NCBI GenBank assembly: GCA_022072165.1
Contig: JAJVIF010000003.1
Coordinates: 186,001-250,000 of the forward strand
From: a bacterium
GTDB taxonomy: Bacteria; JAJVIF01
Reading direction: 5' to 3'
Length of the DNA stretch: 64,000 bases
In this document: in pieces, positions 13,890 to 33,322 of the stretch
Position numbering within the stretch: the stretch's first letter is position 1
How the letters are laid out: the number at the start of each line of letters is the position of its first letter
Translations under genes and position numbers: made by a program
The notes under the pieces: generated by a model
What the model was told of the DNA's origin: nothing
Databases searched by the model: none
Seen by the model: only the letters and a program-made list of their open reading frames with translations

Positions 13890-15155
13890 ATGAACCTCCT
13901 CCTCACGGGCTTCCAGCTTTGCGACCCCACACAGCCCGCAGTCCCGGCTCTTCGGATCCGGGATGGGCAGATCCTGGAGGTCGGCGATTTAAAGCCCCTC
14001 GCGGGAGAAATAGTGGTCGATGCCCAGGGGCTGACCTGTGTCCCGGGGCTCATCGACATCCATGTCCACTTTCGCACCCCCGGCCAGACCCACAAGGAAT
14101 CATTCTGGAGCGGGATGCGGGCCGCCCTCGCCGGGGGCTACACCCAGGTCGTTCAGATGCCGAACACGACCCCGGTCCTGGACTCCCCCGCACTGGTCCG
14201 CCAGCAGACCACCACCCGCCCGGTCCGGTGTCATGTGGCGGCGGCGGTCACCGAGGGGTCCCGACAGGAGCGACTGGTCGACATGCCCCTCCTGCATCGG
14301 GCCGGAGCAGTGGCCTTTACCGATGATGGGCGTCCGGTCCGCTGGGAGCACAACATCCTGGCAGCGCTGCGTCAGAGCGCCGAGCTCGGGGTGCCGATCA
14401 TGGAGCACGCGGAGGTCCTGGAGCTGACGGAGGGGCATCCCATGCACGCTGGCTGGGTCGCCTCCAGCCTTGGCATCGCGGGGCAGCCATCGGAAGGTGA
14501 ATGGGGGATGGTCGCCCGGGATGCAGCCCTGGCAGCCCTCACCGGGGGGCATATCCACTTGTGTCATCTCTCGACCTGGGAGTCAGTGGAGATCCTGCGG
14601 GAGTATCAGGCGGCGGGTCATCGGGTCACCGGCGAAGTCACTCCGCATCATCTGCTCCTCACGGAGGAAGTGATTCTGCAATGGGGTCCGAATGCCAAGA
14701 TGGCACCACCCCTTCGGAGCGAACGGGACCGGGCCGCGCTGGTGGCGGCTTTACTGGATGGGACCATCGCGGCGGTCGCGACTGACCACGCGCCGCATAC
14801 ACCGTCCGAAAAGGACCAGCCCCTGGACCGGGCCCCGTTCGGAGTCATCGGGCTGGAGACCGCCTTCCCGCTCCTCTACACGCATCTGGTCTGCACCGGG
14901 CTCATGCCCCTGGTCGATCTCGTGCATCGGATGAGCACCGGTCCGGCAGCGCTCTGTCATCTGGCGGGGGGGAGCCTGGCCCCTGGGAGTCCGGCGGACC
15001 TGACCCTGCTGGACCTTGAGACCTCCTGGGTCATCGATGCCGATGACTTCGAGAGCAAGTCGCGCAACTGTCCGTTTATCGGCTGGCGGGTCCAGGGGAA
15101 GCCGCGTCACACCATGGTCGGCGGTCAGTGGCAATGGGGCCCGCGGCTTCAGTAA
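13890..15155 (+). CDS. pyrC: Dihydroorotase
   Basis: 421 residues, the usual size of the class I bacterial enzyme. Cyclises carbamoyl aspartate to dihydroorotate, the step after PyrB. ATG 13890 follows ACGGAG at 9 bases. Metal-binding motif DIHVHFRTPG (about 59-68) carries the HxH pair; HxxHLS and ATDHAPHT supply further ligands and the catalytic Asp. The canonical HVHLREPG reads HVHFRTPG here, so the Arg is kept and Glu is replaced by Thr. It is the second pyrimidine gene in a row. Confidence 0.94.
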   Translation: MNLLLTGFQLCDPTQPAVPALRIRDGQILEVGDLKPLAGEIVVDAQGLTCVPGLIDIHVHFRTPGQTHKESFWSGMRAALAGGYTQVVQMPNTTPVLDSPALVRQQTTTRPVRCHVAAAVTEGSRQERLVDMPLLHRAGAVAFTDDGRPVRWEHNILAALRQSAELGVPIMEHAEVLELTEGHPMHAGWVASSLGIAGQPSEGEWGMVARDAALAALTGGHIHLCHLSTWESVEILREYQAAGHRVTGEVTPHHLLLTEEVILQWGPNAKMAPPLRSERDRAALVAALLDGTIAAVATDHAPHTPSEKDQPLDRAPFGVIGLETAFPLLYTHLVCTGLMPLVDLVHRMSTGPAALCHLAGGSLAPGSPADLTLLDLETSWVIDADDFESKSRNCPFIGWRVQGKPRHTMVGGQWQWGPRLQ

Positions 15156-15203
15156 CACTCGCAATTCAGGCCGTTGTGACTTCCCTGACACAGACTTTTG
15201 GGG

Positions 15204-15320
15204 TAAAGTGGTTCCCGAAGCGTCCTGGCAGACGCCCGCAAGTCGGTCCTGATCAGTACACCTGCCGACCGACCCATCGCCCAATCGCCCCCGACGGGAA
15301 GTCAGGGGGCGATTTTTTTG
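15204..15320 (+). ncRNA. Candidate small structured RNA
   Basis: After pyrC, a TAAAGT box (15204-15209) is followed by hairpins GCGTC/GACGC (15220-15235) and GTCGGTC/GACCGAC (15242-15273), then a strong terminator. There is no ORF. It could be an independent RNA of about 105 bases or the pyrC 3' UTR. No SRP-RNA tetraloop or 6S bubble was seen and no good -35 was found. Confidence 0.35.
15284..15320 (+). terminator. Strong rho-independent terminator
   Basis: Stem ATCGCCCCC/GGGGGCGAT (15284-15292 with 15305-15313), extended by GAC/GTC, then seven T. It ends the pyrC or small-RNA transcript. Confidence 0.9.
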
Positions 15321-15391
15321 GGCAGAAGTGCGACCCGCGCTGCACCCACCTTCTCCGGGCCAGCCAGCCGCCAGCGATCCCGGCAGCCTCG

Positions 15392-15397
15392 TATAAT
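15392..15397 (+). promoter_or_regulatory. -10 box TATAAT upstream of paralog C
   Basis: A perfect TATAAT with no clear -35. It would give a leader of about 60 bases before ATG 15464. An ATG directly behind the box (15401) is in the same frame but would precede the signal peptide by 21 codons. Confidence 0.5.
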
Positions 15398-15463
15398 CCG
15401 ATGAACTCCGCTCTCCCCGGACCTGGCACCCGGGGAGTCACCCCCACCGAGGTTTCCTCTCTC

Positions 15464-18262
15464 ATGCGTCGATGCACCCTACCGCTGGCTTTGCTGAGTC
15501 TGACACTCCTGGTGGCCTGCTCCGGCGGGTCCGGCACCACCCCCGCGACCCCTGCGTCACCAGAGCCCGTCGCCGAACCGGCCACCTCCGGGGGACCGAG
15601 TCCGCAGTTCATCCCGACGGCCATCACCGACCAGCATGTTGCGGGCTTCGGGACCTTCGGCACCATCGGGGGGACCCTGGACCTCACGGACCTCAGCCTG
15701 ACCCTGGATCCGCCTGCCCGCACCGCCCAGCTGGGGGAGACCTTCGACCTCGATATCACCGACTTCACCAATGAGAATCCCTGTGTCGACTGCATGCGGA
15801 TCGATGGGGTCCAGGTGAACGGGCAGGGGGAGATCGTGCTGGGGGTGTCGCTGCGCCATCCTTTCAAAACGCCGGGCTTCTTCTTTTCCCGCCCCGACCT
15901 CAATGTCTTCGACACCCGGGTGATTCTGGTGCTGGGGGGCACCGACAGCTCCAATCAGATTCTGACGATTCCTGACAACGCCACCGCCCCTACAACTACC
16001 AGCGGCAACTTCGGAGCCGTAGTGAATGCCGATGGCTTCACCAGTCACTTCGACAGCCGGGCGGAGGATCCCCGGTACTTCGATCCGCCCAAGAATCTGG
16101 CGGGCAACATCAACGCCTTCAAACGCTTCTTTGTGGACCCGGTAAAGACGGAACCGTTTGAGCCGACGGTCCCCTCGGGCTGGAATGTCATGCCTATCGC
16201 CAGTCCGATCCAGGTGCAGGAGTTCGTGATCGACCCCACGCGCCTGGGGAGCGGCACGACCGTCCCCTTTGTGCTGGTGGCGGAAGCGGCCTGGGGGGTC
16301 GCCCGCAACAAAGCGCTGCCGGATGACGATCCAGGCGGGCGATTCAATCCGAAATACTGGCTGCCGGAGTTCAATCAGCATGAGCCCTGGAAAGTGGATG
16401 TCGAGGTGCTCAACAACGGCCTCACCGCCCTGCAGGGAGCGTCTTCAGTCCAGCTGCGCGTGCAGGTCGCCGACTGGCAGGCTGGCGAGACGGTCGACCC
16501 CGGCTACCCCGACCTGGGGAATCTCCGCGGACTGGCCGTAGCCTCCGATGTCGCCCGGGTCCGGGTCGCCATTCCGGGGGTCAACAATGTCGGAGCCTCG
16601 CAGACCACACCCACGAGTGGGGCAGGCTCTTTCAGTGATCCCTACATTTACAACTTCACACTGCAAAACGCTGAAGGGGCCTCCACCGGCACGTACTACG
16701 CTCTGGTGGCGGCGGAAGACAACCTGAACGGCTCCGCCGCCGGACCCCAGCGGGTCCCGGAACTCGGCTTCCCCCGTGAGGGCGCGGAAATCCAGAACTA
16801 CATCGGTTATGCAGTCGCGCCGGTGACCGTCAAGGACATCAACTTCCCACCGCAGGTCCTGACCTCCTTCACACCGGAGGGAGGCATCATCGATGTCGGA
16901 CAGCAGGCCTGCTTTGAGGCGAAAGTCACTGACCTCAACGCCGAAGACACGCACCTCATCGAATGGGACTTTTCTTACGACGCCTCGGTCGGCTTCACGG
17001 CGGAGGCGACCGGCGCGAGCATCTGCCATACCTACACGGCACCGAGCATCAACGTGGTCGCGGTCCAGGTAACCGACAACGGGAATCCGCCGCAGTCAGT
17101 GTTCATCAACAATGTCGCTACGATCCGGGTCAACGGGATCGTCGGTCCGTTCCGGCTCTTTGATGCCGCCCGGTTCGACAAGACCCCGCCGGATGGCGGC
17201 CAGAGCGGGCTGGGTTTTGTCTCCACCGGTCCCCTGCTCCTCCTCTTTAGCGGACAGGATGTCGGGGAAGATATCTTCATCTCCCGGACCACCAACGGCC
17301 AGACCTGGAGCGCGCCGGCGAATCTCAGTGTCCAGGCCGCCGGCGACCAGAGGCGTCCGGACATGGCCATCGCCGGCCAGGCGGTCATGATCGCCTGGGA
17401 AGATGGCGCAGGAATCCGCGGTGCGCTCTCGACCAATGGCGGGCAGAACTTCCAGGCGGGCTTCCAGATTGCAGCCAACGGGACGCTGCCGAGTGTGGCC
17501 GCCACCCAGCCGACCATTTTCTATGTCTCGTACTCCAACGGTGGCGATGTGTTCATCAAGGCCAACGCCATGGGGAATCTGGGGGACTTCACGGGCGCGG
17601 CGACCATCGTGAACGATGTCACCGATGGCCTCCAGACACGACCGGACATGGTGGCGGACCCCGACCAGGATCGGGTCTATCTCGCCTGGGAAGACAACCG
17701 CGATCCGGCGTTCGGCATTGACATCTATGGGGCCACCGCCACGAGTCGGGGGACCACCATCTCGGTGAATCGCGCCCTCTCCGATGACCGGGGGAGCGCG
17801 GATGACACCGAGCCCGCGATGGCTGTGGCCCAGAACGGTGACTGGGTCGGCGTGGTCTACCGCAGCAAGCGGTATCGCACGACCGGCGACATCCTCTTCA
17901 CCAAGAGCATCAATCAGGGCACAACGTACCAGCCGGCGGTGGTCCTGACCGCCGGGCCGGTGGCGACTTACTCCTCCCCCACGATCTCGGCCCGGAACGA
18001 CCTGACCGCCGTGATGGTGGCCTACAGTCGCCTGACCGGCACCAGCGACTATACGGTCCGCTACCACATCTCCTCAGATGGTGGCTCGTTCTTCAAGGCT
18101 CCCATCGATTCCGGCGCGATTGCATTTGCGGACCCCAGCCCCACAGTCGCGCTGCAGCCCAACGCGGGACAGAACATCTCCCTCGCCTGGACCGATCAGC
18201 GCAACGCTGGCACCCAGGACTTCGGGCAGATCTTCTTCATGCTTGGGTACGAGTTTAAGTAG
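15464..18262 (+). CDS. Giant surface lipoprotein paralog C
   Basis: 932 residues. ATG 15464 is chosen because it directly precedes a lipoprotein signal (MRRCTLPLALLS...LLVAC); GAGG lies 11 bases upstream. Family landmarks: CVDC near residue 107, HPF 21 residues after the second Cys, RPDLNVFD, EFNQHEPW and VADWQ. One PKD-like module begins FPPQVLTSF and contains EWDFSYDAS. The C-terminal half has weak Asp-box copies (SRTTNGQTW, STNGGQNF, SINQGTTY) and propeller-like strands such as VYLAWEDNRD. Compared with A and B it lacks the CGGY-type module. Surface ligand binding is inferred; no catalytic residues recognised. Confidence 0.88.
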   Translation: MRRCTLPLALLSLTLLVACSGGSGTTPATPASPEPVAEPATSGGPSPQFIPTAITDQHVAGFGTFGTIGGTLDLTDLSLTLDPPARTAQLGETFDLDITDFTNENPCVDCMRIDGVQVNGQGEIVLGVSLRHPFKTPGFFFSRPDLNVFDTRVILVLGGTDSSNQILTIPDNATAPTTTSGNFGAVVNADGFTSHFDSRAEDPRYFDPPKNLAGNINAFKRFFVDPVKTEPFEPTVPSGWNVMPIASPIQVQEFVIDPTRLGSGTTVPFVLVAEAAWGVARNKALPDDDPGGRFNPKYWLPEFNQHEPWKVDVEVLNNGLTALQGASSVQLRVQVADWQAGETVDPGYPDLGNLRGLAVASDVARVRVAIPGVNNVGASQTTPTSGAGSFSDPYIYNFTLQNAEGASTGTYYALVAAEDNLNGSAAGPQRVPELGFPREGAEIQNYIGYAVAPVTVKDINFPPQVLTSFTPEGGIIDVGQQACFEAKVTDLNAEDTHLIEWDFSYDASVGFTAEATGASICHTYTAPSINVVAVQVTDNGNPPQSVFINNVATIRVNGIVGPFRLFDAARFDKTPPDGGQSGLGFVSTGPLLLLFSGQDVGEDIFISRTTNGQTWSAPANLSVQAAGDQRRPDMAIAGQAVMIAWEDGAGIRGALSTNGGQNFQAGFQIAANGTLPSVAATQPTIFYVSYSNGGDVFIKANAMGNLGDFTGAATIVNDVTDGLQTRPDMVADPDQDRVYLAWEDNRDPAFGIDIYGATATSRGTTISVNRALSDDRGSADDTEPAMAVAQNGDWVGVVYRSKRYRTTGDILFTKSINQGTTYQPAVVLTAGPVATYSSPTISARNDLTAVMVAYSRLTGTSDYTVRYHISSDGGSFFKAPIDSGAIAFADPSPTVALQPNAGQNISLAWTDQRNAGTQDFGQIFFMLGYEFK

Positions 18263-18274
18263 GGCTCGAAGCAC

Positions 18275-18590
18275 ACGCCGGCTGGGCGTCGGCGTGACCC
18301 AGCGACCGGGGGTCGCAGCACCGGGCGAGGATGGCCTCGCCCCTCTGCTCAATTTCCATCTCGCTCTGCAACGTTTCAACTACGAGATTCCCGTTCGGAG
18401 GGGCGACCCCCCGGTCGCCCGGTGATCCGGCGCCTGCGCCGGTGGGTCCGCGACGCGCCCCGCGTCGCACGATAATCCCACGTCGCGCCGACGGGGCGTC
18501 GGCACCACCCAGCGACCGGGGGTCGCAGCACCGGGCGAGGATGGCCTCGCCCCTCCGCGCGACTTCACTTTCGCCCCTTCGAGTACGCAT
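18275..18590. repeat. Palindrome-module island R3 (long-unit subtype)
   Basis: Two copies of the end module (CAGCGACCGGGGGTCGCAG, then a GGGCGAGG...CCTCGCCC stem) flank a full unit at 18397-18562 that parallels island R2. It contains GGCGCCTGCGCC and CGACGCGCCCCGCGTCG stems. The island lies directly after paralog C. The remainder to 18801 shows no gene. Confidence 0.75.
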
Positions 18591-20437: not shown

Positions 20438-21481
20438 TTACACCATAGCCATGAGGGGCTCATCGATGCGGGGGAACGCCGCCGGGATGGCCGGTTCATG
20501 CTCCAGTGAGGGGAGCGGAAGCCAGGGCTGATCGGCCATGGCTGCCGATTGCTGAGCCGCCTCGATGACCTGCAGTGTATAGAGGGAATCGGCTCCCGGG
20601 ACTGGCGACTCTCCGTCGGTGCGGATCGCCTGCAGGAACGCCGTGAGCTCCCGGCGCAGAGGCTCCGCCCGCATGATCGGGACTTCGCTCGCGCCGATGG
20701 TGTTGCTGATGATGAGCTGCTGCTTCATGAAGTCGAGCAGGGCGGTGCAGTGCTCCCACTGCACCGTGAGACGTCGGTTTTTGTACCGATAGAGCCAGCT
20801 CATTTCCGCAACACCACTCTTGAAGAGTCCGAACTCCAGGTGAATGGTCGCGGCATCTGCCCCCATGGTGGCATCGGTGCCGATGACGGTCGCCCGGACT
20901 TCGGTCGCCCGGCGATCGGTGAGCCAGGAAAGGAGGTCGATGTCGTGACAGCCAACATCGAGCATGATGCCGGCATCGGTGATGCGGGGCGGACGAGGCG
21001 CGACCCGCAGGGAAGAAATCCCGATGATGGGTCCCAGCGTGCCGTAGCCAATGATGTCCCGCAGGGCCTGAATCGCCGGATTGAAACGCTCGATGTGCCC
21101 CACCATCAGCAGGAGATGGCGACTCGCGGCGGCGGCATTGAGTTCCTGGCACTGCCGAAAAGTCGAAGCCAGGGGCTTTTCCACGAGACAGTGGATGCCC
21201 CTATCCAGACAGGCGAGGGTCACCGCGTGATGGTCGGCGGTGGGGACCACGACACTGACCGCGTCGAGACCCTCATCGAGGAGCGCGTCCAGTTGCGTGA
21301 AGGGCTGACAGCCGCATCGTGATGCAATCTGCGCGGCACGCTGGGGATCCGCATCGAGGACCCCGACCAGATCGACGTCGGGCATGGAGGCATACAGCCG
21401 GGCATGGTGTTGTCCCATCACCCCGACCCCCAGGACCCCGACTCGGAGGGGTGCCTGCAACGATGTCAGTACGGTGTTCAT
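20438..21481 (-). CDS. Gfo/Idh/MocA-family oxidoreductase next to lpxA (GnnA-like)
   Basis: 347 residues. NAD(P)-binding Rossmann fold with VGVLGVGVMGQHHAR (about 13-27) and the EKPLAS motif near 100, then the C-terminal alpha/beta domain. ATG 21481 lies 20 bases past the lpxA stop, so the two are probably co-transcribed. In Acidithiobacillus and Leptospira an enzyme of this family (GnnA) beside lpxA oxidises UDP-GlcNAc to the 3-keto sugar that GnnB aminates, giving a diamino-sugar lipid A. Position supports that role here, but no gnnB is adjacent, so the assignment is an inference. Another sugar dehydrogenase role is possible. Confidence 0.8.
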   Translation of the reverse strand: MNTVLTSLQAPLRVGVLGVGVMGQHHARLYASMPDVDLVGVLDADPQRAAQIASRCGCQPFTQLDALLDEGLDAVSVVVPTADHHAVTLACLDRGIHCLVEKPLASTFRQCQELNAAAASRHLLLMVGHIERFNPAIQALRDIIGYGTLGPIIGISSLRVAPRPPRITDAGIMLDVGCHDIDLLSWLTDRRATEVRATVIGTDATMGADAATIHLEFGLFKSGVAEMSWLYRYKNRRLTVQWEHCTALLDFMKQQLIISNTIGASEVPIMRAEPLRRELTAFLQAIRTDGESPVPGADSLYTLQVIEAAQQSAAMADQPWLPLPSLEHEPAIPAAFPRIDEPLMAMV

Positions 21482-21501
21482 CCGTGGTCTTCTCCCCGGT
21501 C

Positions 21502-22386
21502 CTAACTCACGACGACCCGCGCGGCGGGCTCGCTCTGGCTGTCCTGTGTACTGGCCTCGCCCGCGGTGACTGACACCGATCCGGCCCCGGAGCCGGCATG
21601 ACGCTGCTGGGAGCCGCCCGAGAGTCCCCGCCGGCTGGTGGCGATGAACTTCAGGAGCTCGGCGATTTCCGGCTCCAGTGGCAGGGTGGTTTTGATCTGC
21701 TCGACCGCTTCGCGCATCGTGAGCTGGGAGCGATAGAGATACCGGAAGGCGGTTTTCAGATGCTGGCGGGTCGAGGCGGAGATGCCGTTGCGCTGCAGGC
21801 CAATCGAGTTCAGTCCAAAGACGACGGCGGGCACGGGGCCACTGGTGATCATGAAGGGGGGGGCATCCTGATTCAGGCCGCTGTCGCCGCCAACCATCGC
21901 CATGGTGCCGATGTGTACGAACTGATGAATGGCGCTCAGGCCACCGATGGTGGCGCGGTCGTGGATCTCCACATGTCCACCAATGGCCACCGCATTGGCG
22001 ATGGTGACGTGATTGCCGATATAGCAGTCGTGTCCGACATGGCAGCTGGTCATCAACATGCAGTCGCTGCCGATGCGCGTCGCCTGGCCATCTTTGGTGG
22101 CCCGGGAGATCGTGACGTATTCCCGCATGATGGTGCGGGGTCCGATTTCCAGGAAGGTCTGCTGGCCCCCGAACTTGCGGTCCTGCGGATCGCCCCCAAT
22201 GACCGCCCCCTGATGCACGACACACTCAGCGCCCAGACGGGTGCCGCCCAGCACGGTCGCGTGGCTCATCACCACGCACCCGGATCCCAGTTCCGCGTTG
22301 TCAGCGATGTAGGCAAAGGGCCCGACCTCAACCCCCTCACCGAGGGTCGCCTTTGGGCTCACTACTGCCAGTGGATGGATGCCCAT
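21502..22386 (-). CDS. lpxA: UDP-GlcNAc acyltransferase LpxA
   Basis: 294 residues. Catalyses the first step of lipid A synthesis, O- or N-acylation of the UDP-sugar at C3. ATG 22386 has AAAGGGAGG upstream and starts MGIHPLAVV. Left-handed beta-helix hexapeptide repeats fill residues 1-190 (VGPFAYIADNAELG). The catalytic His lies in CHVGHDC (about 115-121), and IHQFVHIG and VGGDSGL follow; the Gly in the latter lies where E. coli has its acyl-length ruler, tentatively allowing a long chain. The C-terminus is helical with a 35-residue Ser/Gly-rich tail. lpxD lies 31 bases upstream with no fabZ between. Confidence 0.93.
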   Translation of the reverse strand: MGIHPLAVVSPKATLGEGVEVGPFAYIADNAELGSGCVVMSHATVLGGTRLGAECVVHQGAVIGGDPQDRKFGGQQTFLEIGPRTIMREYVTISRATKDGQATRIGSDCMLMTSCHVGHDCYIGNHVTIANAVAIGGHVEIHDRATIGGLSAIHQFVHIGTMAMVGGDSGLNQDAPPFMITSGPVPAVVFGLNSIGLQRNGISASTRQHLKTAFRYLYRSQLTMREAVEQIKTTLPLEPEIAELLKFIATSRRGLSGGSQQRHAGSGAGSVSVTAGEASTQDSQSEPAARVVVS

Positions 22387-22417
22387 GCGGGCTCCTCCCT
22401 TTCGGAGGGTCGGAATC

Positions 22418-23497
22418 TCAGGCGAGATCCGGCCCTGACTCGTCGTCGTGTGATGTCCCGGTCGGGACCAGCTGTCGCAGCAGTTGCTCAGCGCTCTCGA
22501 GGCGCTGCACGATGTCCGGCAGGCGCTGCAGCAGCACCAGCTCCTTGAGGACATCGCGATGATTGCGGGCCGGGAGCCCCCAGACCTGACTCCCTGGGGC
22601 CACATCGCGGGTGACCCCGGCCTGCCCGCCTACCAGACTGCCCCGGCCCACCCGGACTCGGTTCTGGAAGCCGACCTGACCCGCAATGACGCAGTAGTCT
22701 TCGATGATCACGCCGCCAGCAAGCCCGCACTGGGCGGCCATCCGGATGTGATTCCCCAACTGGCAGTTGTGGCCAATCATGATGAGGTTGTCGAGCTTGA
22801 CGTCATCACCGAGGACTGTGTCATCGAGGGTGCCCCGATCGATGGTGGTGCAGGCCCCGATTTCACAGTCATCTCCCACGACCACTTTCCCAAACTGGGG
22901 CTGCTTCAGCGCGGCATCGAAGCCATCAGTGAATCCGAAGCCATCGCCGCCGATGACCGCATTGGGATGGATCACACAGCGATGTCCGATCCGGCAGTCC
23001 CGACCCACCACAACACCGGGGAAGAGATAGCAGTCCTCGCCGATGACCGCTCCTTCATCCAGGACCACCCCGGCGCGCAGGACAGTCCGGGCACCGACCG
23101 AGACCCCCGCATGGATCACCACCCGCGGACCGATGGCGACCCCGGCACCGATGTGCGCCCCAGGATCAATGACCGCAGTCGGGTGGATGCCGACTGGCTC
23201 CATCGGAAATCCGGGAAAGAGCAGCTGGCAGATTTGGGCGAAGGTGCGCCGGACCTGGGTTGTTTCCAGAATGGCGGGCGAGGTCACCGGCCCCGGGATC
23301 AGACTCGTGACGACCGCCGCGGCGGAGGACGAAAGGGCCCGGGGGACATCCCGCTCCCGTTCCGCAAAAATCACGCTGCCGGGTCGGGCCGAATCCAGAC
23401 TTGCCACGCCTGTGACCCGCTGGCTCCCATCGCCATGCAGGGTCGCGCCGACAAGCTGGGCCAGTTCGGCGACCGTGTAGGTCGCAGTGGTGTTCAT
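22418..23497 (-). CDS. lpxD: UDP-3-O-acylglucosamine N-acyltransferase LpxD
   Basis: 359 residues, normal length. Adds the second acyl chain of lipid A. The N-terminal uridine-binding domain (1-100, with VTGVASLDSARPGSVIF) is followed by left-handed beta-helix repeats (about 105-310). The catalytic His motif MIGHNCQLG is present. Start codon ATG 23497 overlaps the preceding stop by 4 bases (ATGA), so translation is coupled. Lies between the unknown membrane-anchored protein and lpxA. Confidence 0.95.
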   Translation of the reverse strand: MNTTATYTVAELAQLVGATLHGDGSQRVTGVASLDSARPGSVIFAERERDVPRALSSSAAAVVTSLIPGPVTSPAILETTQVRRTFAQICQLLFPGFPMEPVGIHPTAVIDPGAHIGAGVAIGPRVVIHAGVSVGARTVLRAGVVLDEGAVIGEDCYLFPGVVVGRDCRIGHRCVIHPNAVIGGDGFGFTDGFDAALKQPQFGKVVVGDDCEIGACTTIDRGTLDDTVLGDDVKLDNLIMIGHNCQLGNHIRMAAQCGLAGGVIIEDYCVIAGQVGFQNRVRVGRGSLVGGQAGVTRDVAPGSQVWGLPARNHRDVLKELVLLQRLPDIVQRLESAEQLLRQLVPTGTSHDDESGPDLA

Positions 23498-24599: not shown

Positions 24600-25079
24600 T
24601 TACTTGTGCTTTTGCAGCTCTTTGATCACGGCAGGTGTCAGATCGACTCCTCCGAAGTGCACGGCTGCGGCTTCCAGGACGACTTCCACGCCACTCTGGG
24701 CCCCTACGGCATCGATCGCCTGCGCGACCTGTGATGCGAGGGGAGCGAAGAGCTGGTCGTGATGTTTGTCGACCTCAGCGTTGATGGTTTCGTTCCTGAT
24801 GAGCAGTTCCTTTTTCTCGGCGTCGCTCAGCGTGCGCCCCTTGAAGCTGTTGAGTTCCTTCAGCCGGTTTTCCCGGTAAGTCGCTACCGCCTGCTGAGTT
24901 GAGGCGAACTTGGGGTGCCCCTTGATGGCGAGCTCGGAATCGACGTAGCCGACAGCGAAGCCGGCAGCGACGGGCCGAGTGGTGGTGGCGAGCCAGAAGG
25001 CGCAGAGCAGCAGCGTCACACAGACCCCCAGGCTCAGGTGGCGCAGCGCGTTCTGGCGCAGTACAGCGGTTGCAGTCAT
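24600..25079 (-). CDS. ompH: OmpH/Skp-family periplasmic chaperone
   Basis: 159 residues, typical Skp size. Skp holds unfolded outer-membrane proteins in the periplasm for delivery to BamA. Signal peptide to about residue 39 (LLLCAFWLATTTRPVAA), then the OmpH core: VGYVDSELAIKGHPKF, a long helical hairpin (ENRLKELNSFKGRTLSDAEKK), and the C-terminal strand EVVLEAAAVHFGGVDLTPAVI that closes the trimer base. Position between bamA and lpxD matches many diderms. Confidence 0.88.
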   Translation of the reverse strand: MTATAVLRQNALRHLSLGVCVTLLLCAFWLATTTRPVAAGFAVGYVDSELAIKGHPKFASTQQAVATYRENRLKELNSFKGRTLSDAEKKELLIRNETINAEVDKHHDQLFAPLASQVAQAIDAVGAQSGVEVVLEAAAVHFGGVDLTPAVIKELQKHK

Positions 25080-25135: not shown

Positions 25136-26506
25136 TCAGAGCCGGAAGCTGGTGCGGAGCCACCAGAGTCCGGACGTGTCAGTAAAGACGCCGACTCCCA
25201 GTTGCTGGGTCGGCTGGTACAGCATCCCGACCTGTGTCTGGCCATCGTCGTCGGCCCGGTACACCTCCGCGGTAAGGCGGATTTGCGGGATCGGACTGAA
25301 CGATGCGAAAGCTTTGGGCGCTCCTTCGGAGATGTCCCAGGCCGCACCGGCGAACCAGGGACCCTCAAAAATCCCCAGTCCGGCATCCGCCCGGACATCG
25401 ACATCCTCGGTCAGCACGTTGAGCACCACGAAGGGCTCGACGATTCCCAGACGCCAGCCGGCCAGCGCTTCAAACTCTGCGGGCCGGTCATCGTTGTTCA
25501 GGTCCACGAACATCTCAGCCCGCAGGTGCACCCGGGTGCTTTCAGTCCGGGCCAGTGCCCGAATCTCCCCCGGCTCGTTGTCCGGGAAGCGCAACTGCAC
25601 TGTTGGCCGGACGATGGCGAAGGTACGAGCGGTTGAGGAAGTTCGAAGGGCCTCTTCCAGCACCGCCGCAAGCGCCGGCGTTGCTTCCCGGACCACCGCG
25701 ATCGGCTGGCCGACAAAGAGGTCGGCGTGGCGCAGCAACAACTCTTCCAGCGGATCCAGGGTGATCATGAGGAGGGAGTCCGACCGGGCTTCCACCCGGT
25801 AGTTCGTCACCAGCGGCGGACGGGGGGTCAGGTGGAGCAATGCGATGGCTTCTGCTGCCAAATCGACTTCCATAGTGACCACATGGTCCGGCCACGCGGC
25901 CGCCACGTGGTCGGGCACGACCCAATGGGCTTCGACCTGCTCCCGAGCCCAGTCCCGATTCCGGGGTCCGAGGGGGAGACCAATGAGGTGGGGTGCCAGC
26001 TCCGCGATGGCCGCTGCTGCGACCCCCTCGAGCGTGAGCGCATGACGCTCCTGCCAGAACGAAGGGAGTGACGCATCGGCGAGGTCCAGCCGGACCGACT
26101 CCACGCCTCCCCCCACCAGATCAAGCGTGGCGGTGGCCTGGATTGGCTCTTCGGTGGTCAGCACGAGACTGGTGAGGCGGTAGCCCCGGTCCTCCAGCTC
26201 GAAATTGACCCCGGTCAGAACCTGCGCGGCAACCCCGATGGGCTGCTGCTGCAATGCTTCAAGTGTCAAGGTGCCGTCCACGCCCAGCAGCGCGGTCAGG
26301 GTGCCGGTCAGCAGCTCGCTAATCCGCTGCCGAATCGCTTCCGGGAGGGGTCGTGCACTCACGACTTCCACCGGGGCGATCTCTGCGCTCCAGCCCGGTC
26401 CACTCAGGACCAGCAGCAGCAGCGCAGGAAGGAGCCAGCCACCCTGTCGGTCCGGCCCCCGGTACTTAGAACATTTGGCCAAAGCCGAGAACCACCTGAC
26501 TGTCAT
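25136..26506 (-). CDS. Exported protein of unknown function, coupled to bamA
   Basis: 456 residues from ATG 26506; GTG 26512 and TTG 26482 are alternatives. All overlap the 3' end of bamA, so translation is probably coupled. A signal peptide (WLLPALLLLVLSGPGWSA) is cut before EIAPVEVV. The mature protein alternates amphipathic strands and helices, with VVTMEVDL, LMITLDPLEELLL and a strand-rich C-terminal third (RLTAEVYRADDDGQTQ) ending WWLRTSFRL. That could form a small barrel or a POTRA-like periplasmic unit. No family recognised. Location between bamA and ompH suggests a role in outer-membrane protein assembly. Confidence 0.72.
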   Translation of the reverse strand: MTVRWFSALAKCSKYRGPDRQGGWLLPALLLLVLSGPGWSAEIAPVEVVSARPLPEAIRQRISELLTGTLTALLGVDGTLTLEALQQQPIGVAAQVLTGVNFELEDRGYRLTSLVLTTEEPIQATATLDLVGGGVESVRLDLADASLPSFWQERHALTLEGVAAAAIAELAPHLIGLPLGPRNRDWAREQVEAHWVVPDHVAAAWPDHVVTMEVDLAAEAIALLHLTPRPPLVTNYRVEARSDSLLMITLDPLEELLLRHADLFVGQPIAVVREATPALAAVLEEALRTSSTARTFAIVRPTVQLRFPDNEPGEIRALARTESTRVHLRAEMFVDLNNDDRPAEFEALAGWRLGIVEPFVVLNVLTEDVDVRADAGLGIFEGPWFAGAAWDISEGAPKAFASFSPIPQIRLTAEVYRADDDGQTQVGMLYQPTQQLGVGVFTDTSGLWWLRTSFRL

Positions 26507-28478
26507 CCCCACCGAGGTCGAAGCCCCAGTCGATACGGAGCGGCGCGACCCCCAGGAAGGGAATGCGATAGCGGATCCCCACCCCGGCGGTGGTGAGGAG
26601 GTTGCCGAAGTCGAGGGATTCCCCGGGCTGCGCGGCGGTGCCCATGTCGAAGAAGACCGCAGCGCTCAGGTCGTTCACCACCGGGAAGCGATACTCCAGG
26701 TTGGCCAGAATCTGCTTGTCCCCGGTTTGTGTGGCGTACTCCACACCACGGATCGTGGCGGTTCCCCCAAGCTCGTAGCGGTCCAGGAGCCCCAGATTGC
26801 CGAGGGTCCCACCGGCCTGCAGACGGAGCGCGAAGACATGCGGACGCTCCAGCGGACCACTGGTCGAGGTCACCTTTTCTTCGCCGCTCAGACGCCAGTA
26901 CCGCTTGAATTCGCCCGTGATCTTCACGGCATCGAAGTCGCCACCCAGGGGACCACCGAAGTAGTTCGCCACGATGCCAGTCACCGAGCCGCTGGCAGGA
27001 TCCAGGGGAAAGTCCCGGGTGTCCCGGGTGAGCCCCAGGGTGAGGCTGTGCGACGAGCCATCCAGGAGGCCGCGCTGGGCGAATTCGGAAATGTCGGTGA
27101 TGTCGGCGGTCGACTCCGGATTCAGCGTGATCTCGCCGTTGAGAAACTTCAGCCCGATGCTGGCATCGATATCGCGGCTGACCGGATAGACATACCGGAC
27201 TTCCCCCCCGGTCCGGCGGGTGTCGTAGGACGCAAAGCGGTCCCGGTCATTGGGGTCGCGCTCGGTGTCGGTGAAGCTCTGCCGGAAGAGTTCCAGTCCG
27301 AGGCTCGACCCATCATTGCGGAAGTAGGGAATGAAGTACGACAGGCTCCCTTCCGCTTCCGGTCCACCAATCTGCCCGCTGGCGCGAATCGACTGCCCCT
27401 TCCCCTGGAAGTTGCGCTCGGCATAGCTGAGGGTCCCGAGGAGCCCATCGTTGGAGGAGTACCCGACCCCAAAGCCGAGCTGCCCAGTGCGGGCCTCTAC
27501 GAACTTCAGGATCAGAATCAGTTCCTGGTCATCCGTAAACTCAAAGTCCACCCCGACATCATCAAACAACTGCAGCGCGAAGAGCTTGCGCCGGACCGCA
27601 TTGAGTTCCTTGACGTTAAAAATTTCGCCGGGCTTCAGCGTGATCTCCCGCCAGATCACCTGATTGTTGGTCTTGCGATTCCCCCGGATGCGAATCTCTT
27701 TGATTACCCCTTCATTGACATGCAGCATGATGGTGCCGGTGTCCGGCCCTTCAGTGATTGGCTCCCAGCGAGTCACCCCTGCCGCGACATACCCCCGGCT
27801 CCGATACTCGCCTTCCAGCGCTTTGATACCAGCGGTGATGGCATCGTTCGAGATGACTTCCCCGATCACCAGGGGCTTGTCCGAATTGTTGGTGAAGGCC
27901 CGCTCCAGATCCCCGGTCGGAATCAGCCCTTCGCCCTTGTCGATCACCACCTGCGCCCGGCTGAAGGGCGGCATTTCTTCGAGCAGGATGATCAGCCGGA
28001 CCCCGCCACTCAGGGCTTCGGGCGTGAACTCCGGCGGTGAGGCCCAGACCCCCATGTCATTAATGCGACGCAGGTCTTCCTGCAGGGCGCTGGGGGAAAA
28101 GTCCATCCCAGGACGCAGACGCATTACCACCAGAATCTGGTCGTCGGTGATACGCCGATTCCCGCGAAACTCGATGCTGCGGACCACCACGCCCGTACGG
28201 GGCGTAGAAGGTGCGGCTTCCCGGACCGGGGTTGGCGTCGGGGCGGGCGGCGGCGTTGCCGGCTCGTCATCCGCCGGGACTTCCTCGTCCGCCACGTCAT
28301 CATCTGACGCAGGCTCATCCTCAACGGCTGTTTGGTCGGCCTCCATCATGACGGAGGCTTCAGCTTCGTCAGGGTCCAGCGCTCCAGGATCACCCTCCGC
28401 CAGCACAGGAGTCAGCACGACTCCGCACACCAGCCAGAGTGCACATAGCGCGGAAACCAGATGACGGAGCCAGGTCAC
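26466..28478 (-). CDS. bamA: Outer-membrane protein assembly factor BamA (Omp85)
   Basis: 670 residues, shorter than the usual 750-800. GTG 28478 has GGAGGA upstream. A signal peptide (to about 27) leads into an acidic Pro-rich stretch (28-95) not typical of the family. About three POTRA domains follow (96-330: VVRSIEFRGNRRITDDQIL, then IKEIRIRGNRKTNNQVI), against five in E. coli. The rest is the 16-stranded barrel, with TIRGVEYAT in the loop-6 VRGF/Y position and a terminal Phe as the barrel signal. BamA inserts barrel proteins into the outer membrane. It begins the bam-lpx run. Confidence 0.93.
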   Translation of the reverse strand: MTWLRHLVSALCALWLVCGVVLTPVLAEGDPGALDPDEAEASVMMEADQTAVEDEPASDDDVADEEVPADDEPATPPPAPTPTPVREAAPSTPRTGVVVRSIEFRGNRRITDDQILVVMRLRPGMDFSPSALQEDLRRINDMGVWASPPEFTPEALSGGVRLIILLEEMPPFSRAQVVIDKGEGLIPTGDLERAFTNNSDKPLVIGEVISNDAITAGIKALEGEYRSRGYVAAGVTRWEPITEGPDTGTIMLHVNEGVIKEIRIRGNRKTNNQVIWREITLKPGEIFNVKELNAVRRKLFALQLFDDVGVDFEFTDDQELILILKFVEARTGQLGFGVGYSSNDGLLGTLSYAERNFQGKGQSIRASGQIGGPEAEGSLSYFIPYFRNDGSSLGLELFRQSFTDTERDPNDRDRFASYDTRRTGGEVRYVYPVSRDIDASIGLKFLNGEITLNPESTADITDISEFAQRGLLDGSSHSLTLGLTRDTRDFPLDPASGSVTGIVANYFGGPLGGDFDAVKITGEFKRYWRLSGEEKVTSTSGPLERPHVFALRLQAGGTLGNLGLLDRYELGGTATIRGVEYATQTGDKQILANLEYRFPVVNDLSAAVFFDMGTAAQPGESLDFGNLLTTAGVGIRYRIPFLGVAPLRIDWGFDLGGDDSQVVLGFGQMF

Positions 28479-29503: not shown

Positions 29504-32500
29504 TTACTGCAGCGTGCCCCGGGAGGCGAAGAGCTCATTCGTCCCGCCATCGGTGTCCCCACCCCAGAAGAGCGTGACAGCGTTCGCACCGCTCAACGGA
29601 GTGCTGCGGTCCGTGACGATCCAGGGGAACTTGTCGCTGACGATGTTGTACGGGTCGAAGTGATTCGCTGCATGGTCGCTGGCGATGACCGTGAGGCTGC
29701 TGTTCAGCACGACCCCGTAGATTTCCGGGTTCGCCGTGCTGAAGCCGAACGTATCTTCCCGGGTGTCTTCCCAGACCACCCAGATGTTGCCGCTGCCATC
29801 GACACAGAGGCTGGGGTGCACCTGGTCGCGCTCCGCCGCTGCCCGCCCGATGCGCGTGTTGTCGGTATTGACCTTCAGCGCTGAGGTGAATGATGGGATC
29901 CCCGCGCTGTCACCCCGGACCAGGAAGATGTCGTTGGAGCCGTCGCGGTCATCGCTCCAGGCGATGAGGGGGCGGTCCGAGGTATCGACCCAGAGGGCCG
30001 GGTCGGTGCCACCACTGGTGCCCGTACTGCCGGGCAGCGTCTGGTTGCCATAGGCGCTGCCGGTCCCCGCCGGATTGAACTGGGCATAGCCCACGACATC
30101 CGGCCCAGGCCTGACATCGCTCCAGGTGACATGCACATCGCCGCTGCTGTCATAGGCCATGTCCAGGGTGTTGCGGGAGGTCGCGCCACCGACGAGGGGG
30201 AAGAGGACGCCGGTGAGCTGGGTCCAGGTGCTGGTCCCGCCATTACCGGCATCAGCGGAGCGCCAGAAGTCCAGCTGCCCGCTGTTGTTGGCGATGACCC
30301 CCACCACAACATTGTTGACAGTGGACGGATGGACGGCGATGTCGACCTGTCGGCCATTGGGATAAGCCCCCAGAGCGATGATCCGTCGGTTGGCTCCGGA
30401 AGTTGGATTCCACATGTTTGTGCCGCTGGATGTGTTGGCCTTGCGGAAGGCGAGGTTGCCGCTCAAGTCCATGTAGACAGCGTAGGGGAGCAGTCCATCG
30501 GCCGCGTCGATAGCGGCACTCCGCGTGTTGTTCTGTGCGGCGGTATCGACATTGGCCCGATCCACCCAGGTGCTGCCACCTGTGGTGGAGCGGACCGTGT
30601 TCAGGAAGTAATTTGAGCCCGCGTTATTGGAGGCGTAGCCGATGGCGAATGCGTTGTTCCCGTTGCGGGACAACGCGGTGCCGATCACGCTCTTCTGGAT
30701 GCTCCAGTTCGCCCGGAGCCCATCCACTTCCGCATACGACTGTGCCGCCCAGGGGGTGATCATCACTTCCCGGCGGAGATAGCCAAACGCGCCGACGTTG
30801 TCCGTGACCCGCAGGGCCACATAGGTGGACCCGTAGGTGTTGTACGTCCGGGGGGTCGGGTTCTGGATCATCTGGTCGCTGGTGAAACCGACACCGAAGT
30901 CGCTGCTGTTGACGTTGATGTTTTCGTAGTCCCAGTCCCAGGCGACAACGGTCCCATCGGTGTCAAAGCTCGTGCTGCCATCAAAGTCCAGCGACTGGGT
31001 CCGGTTGATGTAGAGCGGCACTGACGTAGTCAGATTGGGGTAGGGTACCCCCGCGCTCCAGATGCCGGATCCCGTCGGGACGGACACTGCCCGGGTAATT
31101 TCCGCCACCGGACGCGCATTGGGTCCCACCGTAAAGGTGACACTGCTGATGCAGAAGCCGCCATCGGTATCGGTCACCCGCATGGCGATCGTGCGGTTCA
31201 CCGGGGTCGAGAGGGGATTGATGAAGTCGTAGACGATGCTGTTCTGCCCGTTGTACAGCGGGTTGGGATCAAACGTGACCCCGTCGTAGTCATCATCCCA
31301 GGCGAAGACCAGCGCGGCGAACGGGTCCTCCACATCGGTGGCGGTGGCTCCGGTCAGTCCCTTGTTGCCCCCGGAGGGGACATTGGTTCCGGCGGGAATG
31401 ACACTTAAGGGGCAGGTCGGCACGTTGTTGGGAGCGACGGTGAAGTCGAGGGTTACCGGACCACAGGTCGCGGCCTCGGTGTCGGTGACCCGCAGGGCGA
31501 TCTGCCGGTTTACAGGCCCGGCGGTGGTGTTGTTCAGCGTAGTGGAGGCGATCGCTCCCGTGGCATCGACCGTGAAGGTCATGCCGTCGTAGTCAAAGTC
31601 CCACTCGAAGGTCAGAGAGCCCTGGGGATCGTTGTCATCGGTGGTTGCCGTGGCATCGAGCAGCACGTTGGTCCGGTGCGGCACACTCCCACCGTTGGGG
31701 GTCCCCACAAGGGAGCAGTTCGGCGGCAGGTTGCCCGGCGCGACCGGCAGGTGCACCACCTGATAAGTCGAGTAGTCGCTGATGGTGAACTGGGTGACAC
31801 CATCGCGTCGCACGCCACCGTTCACCGGCGGGGCATCCCGCAGTTCATCCCGGACCGCAATGAAGCCCAGGTAATCGCCAGCGGGAGCCAGCAGGGTGTT
31901 GCTGACGGCGAAGCTGTAAATCAGCGGGTTCGCGATGGACCCATCGCCGCTGAGCGCCGTTGTCTGGGTCTGCACGCCGTTGATCAGGTCCGGCGCGATC
32001 AGCGCGACACTCGCGACCCGGGACGACTGCCGCAGGCTGTCGAGGGGGGCGGTCTCGAAAGGATAGCCCGGCGTCACCGTGCCGAGGCTCTGCTGCCAGT
32101 CGTTGACCGCGACTTCGACGGTCGCAAACGACGAAGCGTTATTGCTGATGAGGGTGTTGGCGGTGATGTTCGGTAGCACCCGCCAGGCTTCCTTGCGGTT
32201 GTACTCCGGCAGGAAGTACCGGGGGGAGCGGCGGTTCCCCGGCTGCCCCACGGGGATGTTGCCGCGCGCGGAGACACCGTACTTGGCATCGAGGGCCAGC
32301 ACCACACCCACCTGCTCCGCGCCATCGAAGTCCAGGACCATCGTCCCGGTGGCGGTCTGCCCCATGCCGAAGACGTTGTAGCCCTGGGGATTCTGGAGAT
32401 TCGTAAATCCGCTGACCGTCGCCGGGTTGAACTGTCCCGCCACCGGCGCTTCGACTTTCATCAGGATGTACGGATAGACCGTCGCTTCCGAGCCGGTGAT

Positions 32501-33178
32501 GTTGTCGATCACCCGCGTGAGATGCGAGGCGTAGCCATCGGCGTTCGTGAGGAACCCGGGCTTTTTGATCTTGAGATTCGAGGTCACGCCGCCGGCGAGG
32601 CGGGTCTCGATCTGGGGGATCGTCACGAAGTCCGACGGGCCAGCCAGTCCGGGGATCGCCAGCTGGAGCTGCATGTCGAAGACATGCAGGTCGAGGCGTC
32701 CGGACCCAGGCGGCGGGACCGCGAAGGGATGCCGGGTTTCGACTTTGACTTCGACATTGCCATCGCCATTGAGCGAGAGGCCCGTCACCTGCAGACAATC
32801 AGCGCAGGGGGAATTGCGGAAGAAGTCGGTGACATCGACCTCGAAATCTTCCCCCAGCTGCCCGGAGCGGACCAGTGGCTCCAGGGAGGCCTGGAGACTG
32901 GTAGCGTCCATCCGGAGGCCCCAGAGCCCGAAGAGCCCGACTCCGGAATCGACCGCGGATGGATCAATGCCGACAGGCAGCGGACCGGCATGCTGCGGAA
33001 AGACAATGGGCGCTTCTGGCACCGCGGCCGATGCCGATGGCGCAATGGTTTCGTTAGTGGGAGTTGGGGCGGGGGTGGAGTCGCCGGTGGGCGTCATGGG
33101 CGATCGTCCACCTCCGGAGCAGCCGATTAGTAGCCCCAGGGCGGCAAACAGGGCCACCGAGCCGAACGGGGTGCGCAT
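29504..33178 (-). CDS. Giant surface lipoprotein paralog D, largest member
   Basis: 1224 residues. ATG 33178 has AGGAGG at 10 bases and opens a lipoprotein signal ending LGLLIGC. The family domain holds CADC near residue 126, HPF 21 residues after the second Cys, RLDLHVFD, EYNRKEAW and VNDWQQ. Three PKD-like modules follow, starting PPNCSLVG, VPTCPLSV and RPVAEITR, each with an EWDFDYDG-type strand; this is one or two more than its paralogs. The C-terminal part is propeller-like (WRSADAGNGGTSTW, VTWSDVRPGPDVV, IAWSDDRDGSND). It is divergent from the kinase/ATPase gene. Probably on the cell surface; substrate unknown. Confidence 0.88.
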   Translation of the reverse strand: MRTPFGSVALFAALGLLIGCSGGGRSPMTPTGDSTPAPTPTNETIAPSASAAVPEAPIVFPQHAGPLPVGIDPSAVDSGVGLFGLWGLRMDATSLQASLEPLVRSGQLGEDFEVDVTDFFRNSPCADCLQVTGLSLNGDGNVEVKVETRHPFAVPPPGSGRLDLHVFDMQLQLAIPGLAGPSDFVTIPQIETRLAGGVTSNLKIKKPGFLTNADGYASHLTRVIDNITGSEATVYPYILMKVEAPVAGQFNPATVSGFTNLQNPQGYNVFGMGQTATGTMVLDFDGAEQVGVVLALDAKYGVSARGNIPVGQPGNRRSPRYFLPEYNRKEAWRVLPNITANTLISNNASSFATVEVAVNDWQQSLGTVTPGYPFETAPLDSLRQSSRVASVALIAPDLINGVQTQTTALSGDGSIANPLIYSFAVSNTLLAPAGDYLGFIAVRDELRDAPPVNGGVRRDGVTQFTISDYSTYQVVHLPVAPGNLPPNCSLVGTPNGGSVPHRTNVLLDATATTDDNDPQGSLTFEWDFDYDGMTFTVDATGAIASTTLNNTTAGPVNRQIALRVTDTEAATCGPVTLDFTVAPNNVPTCPLSVIPAGTNVPSGGNKGLTGATATDVEDPFAALVFAWDDDYDGVTFDPNPLYNGQNSIVYDFINPLSTPVNRTIAMRVTDTDGGFCISSVTFTVGPNARPVAEITRAVSVPTGSGIWSAGVPYPNLTTSVPLYINRTQSLDFDGSTSFDTDGTVVAWDWDYENINVNSSDFGVGFTSDQMIQNPTPRTYNTYGSTYVALRVTDNVGAFGYLRREVMITPWAAQSYAEVDGLRANWSIQKSVIGTALSRNGNNAFAIGYASNNAGSNYFLNTVRSTTGGSTWVDRANVDTAAQNNTRSAAIDAADGLLPYAVYMDLSGNLAFRKANTSSGTNMWNPTSGANRRIIALGAYPNGRQVDIAVHPSTVNNVVVGVIANNSGQLDFWRSADAGNGGTSTWTQLTGVLFPLVGGATSRNTLDMAYDSSGDVHVTWSDVRPGPDVVGYAQFNPAGTGSAYGNQTLPGSTGTSGGTDPALWVDTSDRPLIAWSDDRDGSNDIFLVRGDSAGIPSFTSALKVNTDNTRIGRAAAERDQVHPSLCVDGSGNIWVVWEDTREDTFGFSTANPEIYGVVLNSSLTVIASDHAANHFDPYNIVSDKFPWIVTDRSTPLSGANAVTLFWGGDTDGGTNELFASRGTLQ

Positions 33179-33322
33179 GAGCGAGTTCCTCCTGGCGGGG
33201 TTGGGACAGATCCCGGACGGCGGCACGGCGGGGAGCCGGGTGGAAGTCGTGACAACTCCAGCCGGCGGGGGGAGTCGAGCCCTCCCCGGATCGTGCAGCG
33301 CGGTCTGTGCCTAAGTAGAGAG

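Follow-up and report, generated by a model that had tools for sequence, protein, structure and literature searches.

Gene content of the lpxA locus

The window, by which we mean the whole stretch of 64,000 nucleotides that was analysed, corresponds to positions 186001-250000 of contig C3 in a genome of 3.26 Mb that is 99.1% complete (G000). On its minus strand, lpxA (21502..22386; 294 aa) begins with an ATG at 22386, behind AGGGAGGAG, and is followed by a gnnA-like gene for a Gfo/Idh/MocA oxidoreductase (20438..21481, minus strand; 347 aa, ATG at 21481). The stop of lpxA and the start of gnnA are separated by 20 bases (21482..21501), a distance given in the earlier note and confirmed as exact by the ORF listing and the sequence. 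This short gap and the common strand suggest that the two genes are probably carried on one transcript. Immediately upstream of lpxA, also on the minus strand, lies lpxD (22418..23497; 359 aa). The same cluster continues upstream on this strand with genes labelled by reading as those of a Skp/OmpH-like protein (24600..25079) and of a BamA-like outer-membrane assembly factor (26466..28478). Catenovulum and Sinorhizobium have the order lpxD-fabZ-lpxA, whereas in the window fabZ is absent between lpxD and lpxA (22387-22417). Two further genes of the pathway, lpxC (C1:911452) and lpxB (C2:672076), are unlinked in this genome.

The four genomes available for this small phylum were compared, namely the window genome and those designated G001, G002 and G003. 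The order lpxD-lpxA-gnnA was observed in all four, with 44-47% protein identity between LpxA and GnnA of the window and their counterparts. Since the adjacency of lpxA and gnnA is kept in every genome at this level of divergence, it is not due to chance. In G001 the cluster extends to lpxD-lpxA-gnnA-lpxB-msbA-kdsB-waaA-lpxK, where msbA, kdsB and lpxB were labelled by reading. Lipid A models were the best NCBIfam matches for waaA and lpxK of this genome, lpxK scoring over its cut-off and waaA under it.

Assignment of the oxidoreductase

The protein encoded next to lpxA contains the domains PF01408 (102 bits) and PF22725 (GFO_IDH_MocA_C3, 50 bits). In a sequence search of the PDB the top match was 7bvj with 150.6 bits, followed by the next distinct sequence with 74.3; the entry is titled 'UDP-N-acetylglucosamine 3-dehydrogenase GnnA from Acidithiobacillus ferrooxidans'. 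An AlphaFold model of the protein (pLDDT 88.9) superimposes on 7bvj over 301 residues with Z 37.5 and 34% identity, at rank 2. None of the best 50 rows of the fold comparison reaches a higher identity; the Z score itself is shared by many Gfo/Idh/MocA chains. The best NCBIfam match is UDP-GlcNAc 3-dehydrogenase NF040723, at 291 bits; this archaeal equivalog has a cut-off of 450 bits, which the protein misses. Two WlbA-like fusion proteins scanned against the same model scored 144 and 120 bits.

Residues K102 (the lysine of the EKP motif), D175, H179 and D180 are invariant in an alignment of 21 sequences. The EKP lysine, the Asp and the His-Asp pair are, we assume, the catalytic residues of the Gfo/Idh/MocA family. 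We found no second Gfo/Idh/MocA enzyme in the 99.1%-complete genome, and the only other PF01408 match, at 25 bits, reads as the regulator Rex. The window oxidoreductase is thus GnnA-like, as proposed in the earlier note and now backed by the sequence match to 7bvj, the fold and the synteny, and 3-dehydrogenase activity is predicted from the same three lines of evidence.

A candidate GnnB on another contig

Matches to PF01041 were found at six places in the window genome. The strongest candidate for gnnB is located on contig C1 (about 295768-296904), unlinked to gnnA, and encodes a C3-type aminotransferase of 378 aa that matches PF01041 (DegT/DnrJ/EryC1/StrS PLP aminotransferase) with 362 bits. 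Among solved proteins it is closest to 7b0d, DesV, WbpE, 4qgr and QdtB. K196, presumably the PLP lysine, is invariant among 13 sequences and kept in all 15 of a second alignment. Unlinked 1:1 counterparts with 43-46% identity, far above that of other DegT proteins, are present in all four genomes of the phylum. The earlier note had held that a genome lacking gnnB would refute its proposal; the proposal is not refuted in this way, since the genome contains one unlinked C3-type DegT aminotransferase, conserved 1:1 with gnnA in the four genomes.

The other PF01041 matches were also considered. The protein at C1:695876 is ArnB/PseC-like, which we take to mean the C4 type, and the one at C1:1781539 is divergent; both match the family of the C1:295768 protein far less well and were rejected as GnnB. 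The remaining three places are weak matches. In raw identity the candidate comes closest to a Streptomyces FdtB-type enzyme (46-47%), and its branch in the tree is long. A function of the FdtB/QdtB/DesV kind was rejected on the tree described below and on the lack of a QdtA-like cupin among the neighbouring genes, as judged by reading.

In a tree of 67 rows, the candidate is placed in a branch of 50 rows with support of 98/91. This branch holds all 16 gnnA-linked GnnBs, the Legionella enzymes, WbpE and 4qgr, and enzymes of the FdtB/DesV type fall outside it. When Nitrospirota were added, giving 90 rows, the GnnB/WbpE branch was recovered with 100/98 and 78 rows. The enlarged tree left out eight names of the 69-row set: two duplicates, the near-copy LINK_L084, the ArnB outgroup, GFO_L177 and the early-branching unlinked rows L134, L135 and L149. 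Part I of the branch contains nearly all gnnA-adjacent GnnBs and does not include the candidate. Part II (subclade II, 89/97) comprises the enzymes of the window's phylum, Legionella, WbpE, 4qgr and many unlinked enzymes, together with two gnnA-linked rows, L061 (adjacent) and L071 (3.9 kb apart).

Gene context was inspected for 11 loci of part II. In five of them (L198, L200, L201, L202 and L205, relatives from Nitrospirota) the gene follows a dehydrogenase-hexapeptide acetyltransferase fusion, an arrangement that resembles a WlbA-WlbB-type fusion before a WbpE-like transaminase (two of the fusions were scanned). The genomes of L201, L202 and L205 carry a separate gnnB beside gnnA. This context makes a role in lipid A improbable for some enzymes of part II, and therefore membership in part II alone does not mean GnnB. 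The assignment is instead made because GnnA is the sole dehydrogenase of its kind in the genome and the candidate the sole clear C3-type transaminase; on these grounds the C1 protein is likely GnnB.

Distribution and linkage of gnnA and gnnB

Relatives of GnnA were confirmed in at least 582 stretches. From among the matches listed, 80 named loci belonging to many phyla were fetched. An lpx gene is present in the stretch in at least 48 of the 80 loci (lpxB in at least 40, lpxA in at least 30), and gnnB in at least 16, adjacent to gnnA in 15; these counts are lower bounds, as many stretches are incomplete and the lpx queries came from one phylum. A whole-genome search for gnnB (E <= 1e-40) covered 49 of the 64 loci without gnnB in the stretch and disclosed a gnnB-like gene elsewhere in 47 genomes, leaving two with no candidate. 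The 67-row tree includes 35 of the 47 best remote matches, 28 of them inside the GnnB/WbpE branch and seven outside; the others stayed out of the tree as two duplicate rows, one fragment that was too short, and sequences that were not fetched. Because remote gnnB-like genes occur in 47 of 49 genomes, linkage to gnnA was dropped as a test for gnnB.

Known systems differ in this respect. The named locus closest to the A. ferrooxidans gnnA-gnnB system (7bvj/7bvk), L053, has the order lpxD-lpxA-gnnA-gnnB-lpxB. The window GnnA is homologous to the A. ferrooxidans enzyme, with the same fold and the best sequence match among solved proteins, whereas gnnB of the window genome lies on a different contig from gnnA, and its product in a different aminotransferase subclade. 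In Mesorhizobium loti (PMC5644692), gnnA and gnnB are unlinked from each other, as they are in the window genome; the M. loti gnnA also lies away from the lpxA cluster, whereas gnnA of the window adjoins lpxA.

The Legionella group offers a second comparison. In F. gormanii, L. drozanskii and L. wadsworthii, gnnA lies directly before lpxB, and the best gnnB-like gene is remote, beside lapB, and belongs to subclade II. An lpx gene next to gnnA and a remote subclade II enzyme are features shared with the window genome. The lapB neighbour was confirmed with NCBIfam in two of these genomes and labelled by reading in the third; at L163:4384-6690 and L165:3758-6064 the gnnB-like gene was seen directly behind lapB and before a pyrF-like gene. 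The neighbours in the window genome are different, namely M16 peptidase-like and DUF58-like genes (by reading). GlcN3N lipid A is found in most Legionella species (PMC7867332). By analogy with M. loti and the Legionella group, we regard an unlinked gnnB as a normal arrangement.

Co-occurrence of the two genes was followed in 61 genomes sampled from the phylum of Candidatus Manganitrophus (Nitrospirota by NCBI), where a gnnB counted as strong if it scored 340 bits or more or was a direct neighbour of gnnA. Of these genomes, 55 carry gnnA, including three weak matches (about 153-159 bits), each with an adjacent gnnB. A strong gnnB was found in 43 of the 55 (30 adjacent, 13 unlinked only) and in one of the six genomes without gnnA. 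The association has a Fisher p of 0.005, a value that ignores kinship and draft incompleteness.

LpxA

LpxA of the window exceeds both curated cut-offs, with 317 bits against 231 for TIGR01852 and 327 against 226 for NF003657. It keeps the equivalents of E. coli H125, presumably the catalytic His, as well as of H122, H160, Q161, K76, D74, N198, R204 and G173. The equivalent of N138 is Ala. Residues were compared in 45 LpxAs. N138 is lost in 29 of the 30 proteins of the gnnA-linked set and in all four of the phylum, and is kept in eight of the 11 classical ones, a signal that comes down to three kinship-independent pairs and is not significant. The gnnA-linked set includes Legionella adelaidensis on the chemistry of the genus, not on a linked gnnA, and Methylobacterium and others were placed in the classical set on an assumed lipid A chemistry. 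The correlation of N138 loss with the gnnA label is only suggestive of a GlcNAc3N-selective LpxA, and it was set aside as proof of selectivity because only three pairs are independent.

Proposed pathway and alternative explanations

We consider it probable that the locus is the lpxA-gnnA unit of a GnnA/GnnB route with a remote GnnB, leading to lipid A with an amide-linked primary chain at C3, at C3' or at both. GnnA would oxidise the 3''-OH of UDP-GlcNAc with NAD+, and the remote transaminase encoded on C1 (about 295768-296904) would aminate the resulting 3-keto sugar to give UDP-GlcNAc3N. LpxA would then acylate the 3''-amine of this sugar nucleotide, and LpxC, LpxD and LpxB, encoded at C1:911452, in the window and at C2:672076, respectively, would carry the product on to lipid A with at least one amide-linked primary chain at C3/C3'. 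We infer each of these chemical steps from the genes and their families, the synteny in four of four genomes, the partner gene, and the presence of lpxC, lpxD and lpxB. Lipid A could contain amide-linked chains, as proposed in the earlier note, with GlcN3N as one or both of its sugars, and this is the best supported of the readings considered. Lipid A of the GnnA/GnnB kind is already known from other bacteria, and this bacterium with its few relatives is probably a further instance of it in an uncharacterised phylum.

Within this explanation, LpxA may accept both sugars, giving a hybrid GlcN3N/GlcN backbone and not an all-amide one, an outcome which we treat as possible, if somewhat doubtful. 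The LpxA of A. ferrooxidans is said to accept both sugars, and hybrid backbones are known for C. jejuni and some Legionella. C. canimorsus has two lpxA genes and a hybrid lipid A backbone (PMC3342949). A single lpxA was found in the window genome, a number equally compatible with a hybrid and with an all-amide backbone.

A different use of the same enzymes is improbable. GnnA and the remote aminotransferase could make UDP-GlcNAc3N or UDP-GlcNAc3NAcA for an O-antigen, a capsule or an S-layer glycan, with ordinary GlcN lipid A and an adjacency of gnnA to lpxA that is incidental. The WbpB/WbpE (WlbA/WlbC) pathway to UDP-GlcNAc3NAcA proceeds through two chemical steps of the same kinds as GnnA/GnnB, its enzymes are related to the pair of the window genome, and subclade II places WbpE-type enzymes together with the candidate aminotransferase. 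Since the genome has three homologues of UDP-sugar 6-dehydrogenase, a product of the UDP-GlcNAc3NAcA type is conceivable. A related pair on a haloarchaeal plasmid has genes for an acyltransferase and for a nucleotide sugar dehydrogenase as neighbours, and in G002 and G003 gnnB comes after an SLBB/Wza-like export gene (labelled by reading). However, gnnA of the window sits in an lpx cluster, directly after lpxA as in all four genomes, and in G001 it is enclosed between lpxA and lpxB. Furthermore, no second Gfo/Idh/MocA gene was found in the window genome, and no sugar-pathway genes were visible, by reading, next to gnnB in G000 or G001.

Least of all do we expect GnnA to act in lipid A without GnnB, its 3-keto sugar nucleotide being either re-reduced or consumed in another way and the aminotransferase being unrelated: 12 of the 55 genomes with gnnA in the Manganitrophus phylum have no strong gnnB and two of 49 genomes no gnnB at E <= 1e-40, but many of the gnnB-less genomes are draft MAGs as judged by title or contig number, both genes are present in all four genomes of the window's phylum, and we know of no 3-keto lipid A.

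Possible wider distribution of GlcN3N lipid A

Ester-linked acyl chains are removed by esterases and mild base, to which amide-linked ones are resistant. Such lipid A is also recognised differently by immune receptors. Mutants of C. jejuni in gnnA and gnnB are altered in TLR4 activation and peptide sensitivity (PMC8036547). If the assignment of the remote GnnB to the lpxA-gnnA unit is true, genomes suffice to predict lipid A throughout an uncharacterised phylum, and searches for gnnB have to reach beyond the neighbourhood of gnnA. With GnnA relatives in at least 582 stretches, the distribution of GlcN3N lipid A is a testable question. Our literature search, which was thin on subscription journals, found no survey of gnnA and gnnB across phyla. 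Less expected were the wide occurrence of GnnA relatives outside the well-studied Proteobacteria and the often remote position of gnnB. As a speculation that we ourselves judge rather unlikely to hold in full, GlcN3N lipid A would be the rule in many Gram-negative phyla that have been little studied, this phylum and most Nitrospirota among them, and the remote aminotransferases of subclade II (from the window's own phylum, Legionella, Zixibacteria, Calditrichia and part of Nitrospirota) would include an unrecognised second GnnB lineage serving the GnnA of lpx operons.

Other features of the window

Two large lipoprotein-like ORFs were noted in the window (15128-18262 and 29504-33226). They have in common the motif DITDF...NPC.DC / DVTDF...SPCADC, followed by HPF, and contain PKD-like stretches as judged by reading. 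A related ORF is present in G002 (L038:13985-16306). The ORF at 15128-18262, which encodes a large secreted protein, is followed immediately downstream by a G+C-rich element of 89 bases in two direct copies (18276-18364 and 18486-18574). The copies are 87% identical and 210 bases apart, and between them lie imperfect inverted copies (18398-18434).
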